The position numbers were made by a program, and so were the translations under genes. Below, piece after piece: positions 7,687-38,388 of a DNA stretch of 41,965 nucleotides (position 1 is the stretch's first letter; each line of letters opens with the position of its first letter). Location: the IMG/VR virus record IMGVR_UViG_3300047444_001061, positions 1 to 41,965 of that record; one strand, given 5' to 3'. This DNA is from a virus. Below the pieces are notes generated by a model, which worked only from the letters and a program-made list of their open reading frames with translations, had not been told where the DNA came from and did no database searches.

Positions 7687-7935
7687 ATGGACGGGCCAGA
7701 ACTTTCTTTAGGTTTAAACTATGAAAACGATTCACAACTTTTTGTTTTCAATTTTAAAAAAGATGGGGAACTTGTTTTTGAACTTCGAATGAATGTCGAA
7801 CAATTTGAGCTACTAAGCTGCGACATGATACGATTGATTAAGCATGTAAACTTACAACAGATTAAAGATTATAATGAACGCCAAGCAAACAAACTCGAAA
7901 ATTTCGTGGACCCTGAAAAAGATCAAACTTGCTGA
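7687..7935 (+). CDS. Hypothetical protein overlapping the methyltransferase gene
   Basis: An 82-residue acidic protein (MDGPELSLGLNYENDSQLFVFNF...). It begins one base after the DUF1064 stop. Its last 62 bases overlap the methyltransferase start in another frame. Beta-strand-rich first half, helical second half. No family recognised. The close spacing supports expression with DUF1064. Confidence 0.5.
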   Translation: MDGPELSLGLNYENDSQLFVFNFKKDGELVFELRMNVEQFELLSCDMIRLIKHVNLQQIKDYNERQANKLENFVDPEKDQTC

Positions 7936-9157
7936 TTTAAAAGATTATGGTAAAAATCCACGATCTCTTAACGAAAAGCAAAAGAATGATCTTAAAAAAT
8001 CACTGGACAAGTTCGGGCTGATTGATAAACCAATCGTTAATACCGACAATGTCATTATTGGTGGTCATCAGCGCGTCCATGTTTTACAAGATACATCAGA
8101 AAAAGAAATTGAGTGTTGGTTTCCCGATCGTACACTTAAAGAAAAAGAAGTAGAAGAACTAAACATAAGACTTAACAAAAATACTGGTGAATGGGATTTT
8201 GATATACTAGCTAATGAATGGGAAGTAGATGACCTTTGCTTGTGGGGTTTTAGCAATTCTGAACTTGGAATTGATGATGCATTAGATGCAGATGATGAAG
8301 AAGGAGAAGCAAATGAAACTCTTGAGCCAGGCAAAGACGAAGATGCAAAAGTCAAGCTTGGCGATATCATTGAACTCAACTCTCATAGAATAGTATGCGG
8401 AGATAGCACATTAAAACAGAATACCGATCTTTGTATGAATGGAAATAAACCTATTTTGATGGTTACAGATCCACCTTATGGCGTAGAATATGACCCAAGT
8501 TGGAGAAAAAATATACATGAAAAGAAAGGTGTAGCTGCGAGAGCTGTTGGTAAAGTACAAAATGATGATAAAATTGACTGGACTGCTGCTTGGTCTTTAT
8601 TCCCTGGATCAACTTGCTATGTATGGCATGCGGGAAAATATTGCAGTGAAGTACAAAAAAGCTTAGAAAATTGTTCTTTTGAAATGGTTTCTCAAATTGT
8701 ATGGATCAAACAGCATTTTGCATTATCAAGAGGCGATTATCATTGGCAACATGAACCTTGTTGGTATGCTGTCAAACGAGGAGAAAATCACAATTGGCAA
8801 GGTGCACGTGATCAAAGTACAACGTGGCAGATCAATAATCTTAATGCTTTTGGTGGATCTAGCGAAGAAGGTGAAGAAAGAACAGCTCATAGTACTCAAA
8901 AACCTCTTGAATGCATGTCTAGACCAATGAGGAATAATTCCAAAGATGGAGATAGTGTTTATGATCCTTTTCTGGGTTCTGGCACTACTCTTTTATCCGC
9001 TGAAAAATTAAACAGAATCTGTTATGGACTTGAACTTAGCCCGGCTTATTGTGATATAATTATCCAAAGATGGGTAACACATATGATAAAAAACAATTTA
9101 GAATTTTCTGTTAAAATTAACGGAGAAGAAGTTGAGTTTGACAATGAAACAGATTAG
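7874..9157 (+). CDS. ParB-like domain / DNA methyltransferase fusion
   Basis: A 427-residue two-domain protein. Residues about 15-75 are a ParB/sulfiredoxin-type domain (KLADLKDYGKNPRSLNEKQKNDL...DNVIIGGHQRV). Residues about 160-400 are an amino-methyltransferase with catalytic DPPY at 199-202 (motif IV), HSTQKP at 339-344 and FLGSGTT at about 366-372 (motif I). The order IV then I indicates the beta class (N6-adenine or N4-cytosine). An acidic linker (residues 133-157) joins them. No restriction enzyme gene is adjacent, so it is likely an orphan phage methylase protecting phage DNA. Confidence 0.88.
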   Translation: MNAKQTNSKISWTLKKIKLADLKDYGKNPRSLNEKQKNDLKKSLDKFGLIDKPIVNTDNVIIGGHQRVHVLQDTSEKEIECWFPDRTLKEKEVEELNIRLNKNTGEWDFDILANEWEVDDLCLWGFSNSELGIDDALDADDEEGEANETLEPGKDEDAKVKLGDIIELNSHRIVCGDSTLKQNTDLCMNGNKPILMVTDPPYGVEYDPSWRKNIHEKKGVAARAVGKVQNDDKIDWTAAWSLFPGSTCYVWHAGKYCSEVQKSLENCSFEMVSQIVWIKQHFALSRGDYHWQHEPCWYAVKRGENHNWQGARDQSTTWQINNLNAFGGSSEEGEERTAHSTQKPLECMSRPMRNNSKDGDSVYDPFLGSGTTLLSAEKLNRICYGLELSPAYCDIIIQRWVTHMIKNNLEFSVKINGEEVEFDNETD

Positions 9158-10218: not shown

Positions 10219-10359
10219 ATGACAAAAAGCAGACCAAGTAAAAAAAGCAAACGATCAAAACCTAAAAATTTACGTCCACTTAGGGAACTATGGCAAAAAA
10301 ATACACCGCTCAAGCAGGCCCACAAACTCAATTCTTCCGAAATAGGGCAGATATTTTGA
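10219..10359 (+). CDS. Small basic ORF upstream of and overlapping terL
   Basis: A 46-codon frame starting MTKSRPSKKSKRSKPKNLRPL, extremely Lys/Arg-rich at first, overlapping the terL start in another frame. No good Shine-Dalgarno is seen. It lies in the same phase as terL downstream of the 40-base insertion, but a stop at 10357 prevents a simple read-through. It may be a leader peptide or chance. Confidence 0.25.
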   Translation: MTKSRPSKKSKRSKPKNLRPLRELWQKNTPLKQAHKLNSSEIGQIF

Positions 10360-11679
10360 TTTATGGGGGGTCGGCCGGAGGCGGTTCAAGTCCCCTAGGT
10401 TAAGGTACTTAGGGGACTAATAGATAAAACTTACGCACTTCTTCTTAAAGCATTATGGCATCATGACTGCCCGGGATTCACCGGAGTAATCTTTCGAAAA
10501 ACATCTAAGCAAGCTAAAAACGCCGGGGGCATTTGGGATGCATCTTTAGAGATATATCAAGATTTCGGTGGAGAAGCAAAGCATACTACCTTGGAATGGG
10601 AGTTTAAATCCGGCGCAAAGATTATGTTTGGTCATCTAGATCATGAATCAGATAAGTATGATTGGCAAGGAGCTGGCATTTGCTTTATTGGGTTTGATGA
10701 GTTGACTCATTTTTCTTGGGGTCAATTCATGTACTTACTTTCTAGAAACCGTTCCACATGTGGCGTAAGGCCACATATTAGGGCTACTTGTAATCCTGAC
10801 CCTGATTCTTGGGTGCGCAAATATATTGATTGGTGGATTGATCCGCAAACCGGTTTAGCTATTCCTGATAGAAGCGGAAAGATCCGTTGGAATATTTGCA
10901 AAGAAGACGAGGTGATTTGGGCAGATTCGAAAGAGGAACTTGAAGAAAATTATCCTGGCTGTTTCCCTAAGTCTGTTTCTTTTATCGCTTCTACTATATA
11001 CGATAACAAAATACTACTTGAAAAAGATCCTGGCTATTTAGCCAATTTGCACGCTCTTCCAAAATATGAACGCGAACAGTTACTTCACGGAAATTGGAAT
11101 ATCAGACCAACAGCAGGAATGTTTTTCAGACGTGACTTTTTCGAAGTTATCGATGTTCTACCGAAAAATCTAACATTTGTAAGATATTGGGATAGAGCAG
11201 CTACACAAAAAAATGAAACTAACGACCCAGACTATACTGTAGGGGTTAAATTGGCAAAAGATCGTGACGGCGTTTTTTATGTGTGTGACGTTGTCAGAAT
11301 GCAAGAAAGTCCACTGAAAGTACAAAATGCAATCAAAAACTGCGCATCTTCCGATAGCAATTATACTCGAATTGGACTAGAACAAGATCCAGGCCAGGCC
11401 GGAGTTAGTGAAGTTGATCTTTTGATTAGAAACCTTTCCGGATACAATGTAAGGGCATATAAAGTAACAAAAGATAAAGTTACACGTGCTAGTCCTGTTA
11501 GTGCCCAAGCAGAGGCCGGTAACATAAAAATCTTAAAAGGTCATTGGAATGAGCATTTTTTCCGTGAACTAGAGAATTTCCCCGAAAGTGCGCATGATGA
11601 CATAGTTGATGCTTTTAGCGGTGCTTTTTTGATGCATACTGAGAGCTCTTACGATATCATGCAGTTAACAAAAATTTAG
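10290..11679 (+). pseudogene. Terminase large subunit, interrupted in Walker A by 40 bases
   Basis: The ATPase-nuclease that pumps DNA into the capsid. From the ATG at 10290, MAKKYTAQAGPQTQFF... runs to GGSAGGG (codons to 10385). The frame then hits TAA at 10401. At 10426 the missing part resumes in another phase as KTYALLLKALW. Deleting 10386-10425 (40 bases) gives one 449-residue terminase with Walker A GGSAGGGKT, Walker B ICFIGFDE (DE at about 123-124), and nuclease Asp residues in RYWDRAA and HDDIVDAF. Every other motif is intact and the rest shows no decay. So either the segment is bypassed or removed, or the gene is newly broken. Confidence 0.85.
10386..10425 (+). other. 40-base hairpin insertion inside the terL Walker A codons
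   Basis: The segment lies exactly between the last Gly codon (GGT, 10383-10385) and the Lys codon (AAA, 10426) of the P-loop. Bases 10389-10400 pair with 10407-10418 as a 12-bp stem (one G-T wobble) around the hexaloop TAAGGT. In-frame stops lie in the loop and the 3' arm. No target-site duplication is visible. The resemblance is to bypassed segments such as that of T4 gene 60 and to small palindromic insertions. Confidence 0.7.
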
Positions 11680-22727: not shown

Positions 22728-23183
22728 ATGATTGAAACTAGAGAAAAAGAAATCAACGGCGCTATTTATAGCGTAACTCAATTAACCGCTCGTCGTGCAA
22801 TTCGTCTAAAATCAAAGCTTATAAAATTGTTTGGCCCTGTTATTGCCCAAGTTTTTGTAAATGTTGCAGACGTAAAAAATGCTGAGCTTGAGAAAAAAGA
22901 TAATCTTGTGAAAGCTGTTGAACTTTTAAGCGAGCATTTAAACGACGTTGAACTTGAAAATATCATTGTTGACATTTTGCAGTCAGTTAGAAAAAATGGC
23001 GTAGAACTTGTCCCAGCTATTATTGATCTTGAATTTGCCGGTGACATTGGCACTCTTTATCAAGTATGCTGGTTTGCAATTGAGGCTAACTTTTCAAGTT
23101 TTTTTTCACTTCTGGGTATTGGAAACCAATCGACCGAGAACCCAAGCCCAGTCGTTACGAAAAAAATCTTCGGGAAGAAATAA
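22728..23183 (+). CDS. Tail assembly chaperone, short (G-like) product
   Basis: A 151-residue helical protein (MIETREKEINGAIYSVTQLTARRAIRLKSKLIKLFGPV...) at the place of the tail assembly chaperone between tube and tape measure. It ends ...VVTKKIFGKK at the TAA at 23181. The same gene yields a longer product by -1 frameshift (see the next entry). It coats the tape measure during tail assembly and is not in the virion. Confidence 0.75.
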   Translation: MIETREKEINGAIYSVTQLTARRAIRLKSKLIKLFGPVIAQVFVNVADVKNAELEKKDNLVKAVELLSEHLNDVELENIIVDILQSVRKNGVELVPAIIDLEFAGDIGTLYQVCWFAIEANFSSFFSLLGIGNQSTENPSPVVTKKIFGKK

Positions 23184-23365
23184 AAGAAGAGTACGAAATT
23201 TGGCGACTTATACTAGAAAAACTTGCTACTTTGCAAGAGTTAGAAACTCACTGGTCATATGATGATGTATTGAGAGCAACTGCGCTTTTAGATATGCAAG
23301 CTGACATAGAACACGAAACAAAACGACAGGCAGAACGTGACAATAATAAGAGAGCTCGTTACTAA
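22728..23365 (+). CDS. Tail assembly chaperone, frameshifted (GT-like) product
   Basis: The -1 frame relative to the short chaperone is open from 23090 to the TAA at 23363-23365. It encodes EEYEIWRLILEKL, LQELETHWSYDDVLRATALLDMQADIE, the typical second domain of tail chaperones, and has no start codon with a ribosome site of its own. Two slippery runs lie in the overlap: T8 at 23099-23106 (T TTT TTT in frame) and A7 at 23160-23166, directly before the zero-frame stop. I favour A7 because the zero-frame SFFSLLGIG ending looks native. Expected product about 212 residues. Confidence 0.7.
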
Positions 23366-37427: not shown

Positions 37428-38096
37428 ATGGAATCATTTTTTTATACAGTAGGTAACGAAAAGTTATTTGAACTTAAGCGTAGGAGATATGCACGACAAC
37501 TTACAGCTAGAGCAATCAAGAGGAAGGATCTTGTAAAAGATTCAAAATGTTTTTTATGTAAAAAGGAGAAGCACGATATAGAAGCGCATCATTGCGACTA
37601 CGGCAAACCATTTGATGTGGTCTGGCTATGCAAAAAATGCCATTCTTGCGCTCATCGTAAAGATCATGAGTTAAATCCCGATAACTGCGAACAAACGCAA
37701 ATTTCGGCGATCTATGACGATTCTACTCTTGTGCAAGTAACAGTCTTTTTGCCCATGGGAAATTTTGCGAAAATTCGAGAAGAAGCCGAACTGAAAAAAT
37801 GTACTGTAAATAAGCTTTTAAAAAAAATGATTATGAAAGAATATCCAGCATTTACTAACCAACTTTATTTTAATTTCGAGGATAGAAAAAATGACGACTC
37901 ATCAAATGTACAGAAGTCGAGAATATCGCGCTTGGCGCCGCATGAAGGGCATATGCTACAACAAGAATTCCACCGGATTTGCAAAATTTGGGGCAAAAGG
38001 GATCACAATTTGCAACTCATGGATAAAAAGTTTCCAGATTTTTATAAACGAAATGGGAGAAATGCCACTGACTTGCAATGGCTTAGAGTTGCTTGA
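37428..38096 (+). CDS. DNA-binding protein: zinc/HNH-like finger plus ribbon-helix-helix
   Basis: About 222 residues as an open frame. Residues 41-77 carry CFLCKKEKHDIEAHHCDYGKPFDVVWLCKKCHSCAH, a CxxC...HH...CxxCH zinc-binding unit common in phage regulators and HNH-like proteins. Residues about 100-135 (TLVQVTVFLPMGNFAKIREEAELKKCTVNKLLKKMI) look like a ribbon-helix-helix. The final ~69 codons overlap the next gene in another frame and are probably not a domain. Candidate early transcription regulator near the inverted repeats. Confidence 0.6.
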   Translation: MESFFYTVGNEKLFELKRRRYARQLTARAIKRKDLVKDSKCFLCKKEKHDIEAHHCDYGKPFDVVWLCKKCHSCAHRKDHELNPDNCEQTQISAIYDDSTLVQVTVFLPMGNFAKIREEAELKKCTVNKLLKKMIMKEYPAFTNQLYFNFEDRKNDDSSNVQKSRISRLAPHEGHMLQQEFHRICKIWGKRDHNLQLMDKKFPDFYKRNGRNATDLQWLRVA

Positions 38097-38388
38097 TGGG
38101 TGTAATGAGTTCGGAAAATTAACTTGCAAATGGAGCAAAAAAAAGGCCGGAAGAACCCCGAAATTGATTGACTTTAAATCTAAAAAAAAGCCCCGACCTG
38201 CTATCAAGAACCCGAAAAATATATGTTTGGTTATCGATAAAGACCAGCTGGATTACATAAAAAGGCAAGCGTTACAAAAATCCATCACTGAAGGCGTCAA
38301 TATCGAAGCGAACCAACTCATTAGAGAAGCAATCCAGCGATCTTTTCCTTTGCCAAAACAGCTAGATATGTTTGGCGCAAAAATATAA
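37891..38388 (+). CDS. DNA-binding protein with HNH-associated N-terminal domain and RHH-like C-terminus
   Basis: A 165-residue protein. MYRSREYRAWRRMKGICYNK...FGAKGITICNSWIKSFQIFINEMGEMP...LELLDGCNEFGKLTCKW fits the phage DNA-binding domain with pattern W..M..RC.N...Y.G.RGI.VC..W...F..F..DMG.RP, without the HNH catalytic residues. The C-terminus (ICLVIDKDQLDYIKRQALQKSI...EANQLIREAIQRSF) is ribbon-helix-helix-like and ends PKQLDMFGAKI, similar to the preceding protein's NQLYFNFED. Overlap with the preceding gene is 206 bases. Confidence 0.6.
   Translation: MTTHQMYRSREYRAWRRMKGICYNKNSTGFAKFGAKGITICNSWIKSFQIFINEMGEMPLTCNGLELLDGCNEFGKLTCKWSKKKAGRTPKLIDFKSKKKPRPAIKNPKNICLVIDKDQLDYIKRQALQKSITEGVNIEANQLIREAIQRSFPLPKQLDMFGAKI

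Follow-up and report, generated by a model that had tools for sequence, protein, structure and literature searches.

In the large terminase gene (terL) of a virus, the codons for the last glycine and the lysine of the Walker A motif (P-loop) are separated by 40 nt, which are probably (at a probability of roughly 0.7) an untranslated coding gap that is bypassed by ribosomes. The gene lies in a linear virus record of 41,965 bases with an intact myophage structural gene set, hereafter called the window. Translational bypass was the lead idea of an earlier, sequence-only reading of this DNA and is now the best-supported explanation, since interruptions at this very Gly|Lys boundary occur in at least eight phage lineages besides the window, mostly consisting of 4-5 nt that open with a stop codon. 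The best reading of these cases together is that phage TerL has a recurrent recoding site, which the window carries in a long form with a hairpin and of which a stop-hop over 4-5 nt would be the commoner form. To our knowledge, natural bypassing has so far been limited to T4 gene 60 and some yeast mitochondria, with one further case proposed in a Streptomyces phage terminase. A short bypass of the stop-first type that recurs at one invariant position would hence provide many independent natural experiments on ribosome hopping, with a natural range of gaps from 4 to 40 nt, of matched and mismatched landing triplets, and of sites with and without a hairpin. Gene finders would call such terminases broken or truncated, and the existence of natural stop-hops, as well as what they regulate, become directly testable.

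Without the gap, the window TerL comprises 32 + 417 = 449 residues; both flanks are intact and conserved, and the Walker A, Walker B and nuclease motifs are all there, apart from the gap inside Walker A. The second open reading frame (ORF2) matches Terminase_6N (E 4e-22), Terminase_6C (E 5e-24) and, from profile position 179, phrog_979 (E 2e-159), and the genes for portal, capsid and tail nearby are likewise intact. The features of the locus are:

10290..10385, plus strand: TerL ORF1, MAKKYTAQAGPQTQFFRNRADILIYGGSAGGG, from ATG to GGT, 32 aa ending GGSAGGG, i.e., with the Walker A Gly codons; N-terminal motif as in relatives
10377..10381, plus strand: GGAGG, Shine-Dalgarno (SD)-like run formed by the P-loop Gly codons, possible stimulator, based on enrichment of GG[GA]GG in gapped TerLs
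10383..10385, plus strand: GGT, last Gly codon before Lys, putative take-off codon, based on enrichment of GGT at that codon
10386..10425, plus strand: the 40-nt coding gap, TCAAGTCCCCTAGGTTAAGGTACTTAGGGGACTAATAGAT, not present in 76 relatives
10389..10400, plus strand: left arm of the hairpin, AGTCCCCTAGGT, from pairing and fold
10401..10403, plus strand: TAA in the hairpin loop, first stop in the frame of ORF1, read from the sequence
10407..10418, plus strand: right arm of the hairpin, ACTTAGGGGACT, from pairing and fold
10414..10416, plus strand: GGA in the frame of ORF2, an alternative landing codon that would add Leu-Ile-Asp before Lys
10421..10425, plus strand: TAGAT, 3' end of the gap, resembling (a resemblance only) the entire 5-nt gap TAGGT of loci L237 and L239
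10423..10425, plus strand: GAT, putative landing triplet adjoining Lys, by analogy with the other cases; two of its three bases fit GGY
10426..11679, plus strand: TerL ORF2, intact, resuming at AAA and reading KTYALLL...TKI over 417 aa, with Walker B (FIGFDELTHF) and the nuclease domain, from profile matches and motifs

The coordinates, the 12-bp stem, the in-frame stop and the residue count given by the sequence-only reading all agree with the sequence. The stem consists of 11 Watson-Crick pairs and one G-U pair and closes a 6-nt loop, and the gap RNA folds with -23 kcal/mol, against a mean of -13.3 for shuffled sequences (z -3.35). Neither a second copy of the hairpin gap within the window nor a near-exact hairpin in IMG/VR was found.

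The closest TerL relative covering the P-loop (L008; tblastn, IMG/VR) is 71% identical. The P-loop is unbroken in 76 of the 77 relatives in which it is covered, and these 76 show no broken frame across about 400 codons, while the sole broken TerL, L023, is interrupted at the very same Gly|Lys boundary (GGT[TAGC]AAA). The sequence-only reading had considered plain inactivation or an assembly error, such that the 40 nt either abolish TerL function in a defective phage or are not really there, and had pointed to uninterrupted or decaying relatives as the sign of it. Uninterrupted relatives are indeed the rule, and no relative is broken elsewhere in the gene. It had also proposed to align close relatives for the 40 bases, and none was found with them. 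This absence, the single metagenome contig and the fact that a TerL unable to bind ATP would be dead all speak for inactivation or error, which we nevertheless judge unlikely, given that the remaining TerL and the structural genes are intact, that the one broken TerL among the 77 relatives is broken at this boundary, that the stop-first 4-5 nt form recurs independently, and that plaque-forming Hautrevirus phages keep a gap at Gly|Lys (see below).

The recurrence was established by pattern scans of IMG/VR within one terminase subfamily. For long gaps, the pattern Y-GG[SA]AG[GA]G followed by 25-55 nt and K[ST] was used, with TAT or TAC as the front codon, together covering about 61% of the sequence space of the subfamily. 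No match was obtained with the TAT front and one with the TAC front, namely L225, with a gap of 39 nt (GGC[TTATGACGCCCCGCGGCGCAATCTGCGGGGCACTGAAGC]AAG). The hairpin of L225 sits at the same boundary but differs in sequence from that of the window, and its 9-bp stem is weaker (z -1.67); a stem-loop is not applicable to gaps of 4-5 nt. The L225 gap begins with TTA followed by TGA, so that the stop is not directly 3' of the take-off codon. The L225 TerL is otherwise whole and is the only TerL found in its 149.8-kb record. The scan for short gaps, which accepted any 1-31 nt not starting with A at the boundary and reached about a third of the TerL subfamily sequence space, returned seven loci representing six different sites, all with gaps of 4-5 nt and none with 1-3 nt. 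The 5-nt gaps are GGC[TGAGC]AAA (L235), GGT[TAGGT]AAA (L237), GGT[TAGGA]AAG (L238) and GGA[TAGGT]AAA (L239), and the 4-nt gaps are GGT[TAGT]AAA (L236 and L241, with identical TerL sequence) and GGC[TGAC]AAA (L240). Including L023, TAG or TGA opens the gap directly after the Gly codon in 8/8 short-gap loci. In every case, joining across the gap restores GGGK[ST], and the frames downstream of the gaps are full length (420-488 aa). A control scan for insertions of 26-56 nt anywhere in the next ~15 codons gave 0 matches in IMG/VR, with a pattern carried by about 27% of relatives, compared with about 32% for the TAC gap scan. Most gapped cases are metagenome assemblies, and L237 and L240 are, as we take it from the numbering of their IMG records, isolate genomes. 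Pattern searches of 754 GTDB genomes revealed no gapped TerL, nor was one seen among the named phages of the window's TerL family that were examined. The TerL interruptions of phiTE and Listeria phage LPML1 were set aside, as coding sequence lies between their pieces.

The nine different gapped sites are scattered across the TerL tree and require 8 changes, at least 7 of which are forced by well-supported branches, and L225 with its 39-nt hairpin gap is sister to L238 with its 5-nt gap at 100/100 support. Gaps of both length classes hence look like variants of a single phenomenon. The pattern is unlike decay, as the 1-2 base indels at many places that would prevail in dead genes or after sequencing errors are absent.

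The codons at the boundary would suit re-pairing of tRNA-Gly. The triplet before Lys is GGT, GGA, GGT or AGC in the 5-nt gaps, AGC, AGT or GAC in the 4-nt gaps, and AGC (L225) or GAT (window) in the long gaps, each of which offers tRNA-Gly two or three bases to pair with. The take-off and landing triplets are both GGN in L237, L238 and L239, while two of three bases match in the window (GGT/GAT), L225, L235, L236, L240 and L023. In 4-nt gaps, an opening TAG or TGA by itself creates a Gly-like triplet, and the landing is therefore tested by the 5-nt and long gaps only; GGN or AGC closes all four 5-nt gaps, so that the second base of the landing triplet is G. The take-off codon is GGT in 5/9 gapped versus 11/81 ungapped TerLs (p 0.008), and GG[GA]GG precedes the boundary in 8/9 versus 36/81 (Fisher p 0.014), in small samples of nine gapped sites and with p values that carry no multiple-test correction.

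A stop codon beside a G-rich, SD-like run also recalls the +1 frameshift site of prfB, where a stop codon adjoins such a run, and the short gaps could be crossed by frameshifting with decoding, i.e., a slip of +1 (4-nt gaps) or of +2 or -1 (5-nt gaps) past the stop, after which the triplet before Lys is decoded and the P-loop gains one or two residues. The G-rich runs in L238 and L237 could permit -1 slippage, yielding ...LGKS and ...LGKT, respectively. However, different gaps would need different shifts, 39-40 nt are beyond the reach of frameshifting, pairing of tRNA-Gly is poor in the shifted frames, and the products would read S-K, D-K, LS-K or LG-K, in contrast to the invariant G-K of the relatives; we therefore rate frameshifting as slightly less likely again than inactivation.

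Both the hop itself and the landing triplet are deduced from these sequence patterns. Under bypass, the ribosome would read ORF1 up to GGT at 10383-10385 and then stall, due to a stop codon in the A-site in the short-gap relatives and presumably due to UCA and the immediately following hairpin in the window; UUA, as in phiHau3, may be an alternative A-site stall codon. The peptidyl-tRNA-Gly would then release, the mRNA would slide, and the tRNA would re-pair on a Gly-like triplet before AAA (GAT at 10423-10425), so that translation would restart at Lys and produce the P-loop GGSAGGGKT. A 5-nt hop, as in GGT[TA(GGT)]AAA, would allow perfect re-pairing, and the SD-like Gly codons and the hairpin may have stimulating roles. 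Of all cases, that of the window is the least certain, as GAT matches GGY at two positions only, TCA rather than a stop stands directly 3' of the take-off codon, and a single contig is available. The earlier worry that GAT is not a GGN landing codon is thus real for the window, yet it is softened by the other sites, where two-position pairing recurs. The likeness of the window's TAGAT to a 5-nt TAGGT gap is suggestive only.

The closest parallel, which the sequence-only reading did not name, is the terminase of Streptomyces phage phiHau3 (Hautrevirus), a closer one than T4 gene 60. In the review passage on Hau3, bypassing in the terminase is called likely, with KGWG encoded before UUA (PMC5009743). 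In the phiHau3 genome (NC_018836), AAG GGT TGG GGC [TTACTCCGGT] AAG GAC encodes KGWG|KDPLLA, with 10 nt between the Walker A Gly and Lys codons, the position of the window gap, in a different terminase subfamily. GGC[TTACYCCGGT]AAG is common to three isolates, phiHau3, GreenWeasel and BroPlease, while Yosif is without the gap. Over the 96 codons after the gap that lie before a second indel, to which the comparison was limited, 22 codons differ synonymously and 2 non-synonymously between Hau3 and BroPlease, which argues for translation and purifying selection of the frame past the gap in plaque-forming phages. The phiHau3 case thus shares with the window the terminase gene and the Gly|Lys position, and occurs in viable isolates. 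Its own features are the hard-to-decode A-site codon UUA and a Gly landing triplet adjoining Lys; this combination is lacking in the window (TCA and GAT), while L225 has TTA. It differs further in the unrelated subfamily and host, the 10-nt length, UUA instead of a stop, the lack of a hairpin and a second UUA gap in the gene. That second gap (NC_018836, 2924-2933; TCT[TTAACGGTCC]ACG) is also 10 nt long, lies just before Walker B, has Ser take-off and Ser landing triplets, and is shared by GreenWeasel but is not found in BroPlease or Yosif.

The parallel to T4 gene 60, drawn already in the sequence-only reading, holds. T4 gene 60 uses GGA, UAG, stem-loops and GGA (PMC3014915, PMC11194080), hence a Gly take-off codon, a stop codon, a stem-loop and a landing site adjoining the resume codon, in a subunit of an essential phage enzyme; its gap has 50 nt, compared with 40 and 39 nt in the window and L225. 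In contrast, it concerns a topoisomerase, has perfectly matched GGA codons and a proven nascent-peptide signal, and is found in one lineage, whereas the TerL gaps are mostly 4-5 nt long and occur in many lineages. The byp elements of Magnusiomyces mitochondria likewise are short untranslated gaps that tolerate imperfect take-off/landing matches, but these are a mobile element family in many mitochondrial genes, while the TerL gaps hold one fixed protein position. Synthetic stop-hops (Weiss et al., 1987, with a +5 shift in the title) take place in engineered constructs, where the peptidyl-tRNA leaves one codon and re-pairs with a matching one beyond a stop; according to the review that cites this work (PMC5009743), natural in-frame stop-hops are not known.

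The sequence-only reading had also raised a new mini-insertion and RNA or DNA excision, in which the hairpin, as a minute intron or a DNA element, would be cut out ahead of translation. Neither is needed for the 4-5 nt cases, and excision appears very improbable for the window as well, even though the hairpin is compact and the only target-site duplication is one base at most. Gaps of 4-5 nt at the same boundary cannot be introns, the window gap matches no Rfam family, intron or tRNA, it contains no group I or II intron core, and its length is far below that of any such intron; we know of none anywhere near as short as 40 nt. A spliceosome-like GT...AG in the window gap is not common to L225 and was attributed to chance, and an archaeal BHB intron, raised by a Methanoculleus virus match, was set aside since 4-5 nt gaps occur. 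The lack of Rfam and tRNA matches likewise led to the rejection of a tRNA fragment or Rfam element as the identity of the gap. A mobile repeat was also considered and rejected, as the AGTCCCCTA...TAGGGGACT hairpins that abound in unrelated genomes have other loops and flanks and were not seen in the P-loop of any TerL.

As to the purpose of the gap, the hop may restrict how much motor protein is made, or homing nucleases may be denied their target by an insert that disrupts the P-loop DNA but leaves the protein as it is. The latter role has been proposed for the T4 gene 60 insert (PMC5009743). No homing endonuclease adjoining terL was seen in the window. On balance, we favor, with somewhat less confidence than bypass in the window, that phage large terminases have a convergent hot spot of natural bypassing at Gly|Lys of Walker A, where hops ranging from 4 nt across a stop to 40 nt across a hairpin have arisen repeatedly, serving either to ration the motor or to make the P-loop DNA uncuttable by homing nucleases.

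Several further observations were made along the way. In Chitinophaga sp. YR573, a long palindrome, GACTCCGTWAGG-AGTCCCCTA...TAGGGGACT-CCTWACGGAGTC, is present many times as a REP-like repeat family (L106, L112, L116, L136, L139, L142, L146, L166, L173, L175, L181, L182, L184), and the Coriobacteriales MAG S14M_St_47 contains repeated nested GGGGAC/GTCCCC hairpins (L108, L128, L137, L151, L160, L162). Upstream of the window's terminase genes lies a gene with a ParB domain and a DNA methyltransferase (7874-9157), and a similar gene is likewise placed in the phage of L225 (L232:15090-16499). Two adjacent, overlapping HNH endonuclease-like ORFs are located at 37428-38388, far from terL. Finally, in the region 22728-23262, the tail assembly chaperone ORF of the window ends at 23183, near a run of A at 23160-23166, and a plausible -1 frame reading from CGAAAAAAATC likely reflects an ordinary tail-chaperone frameshift.
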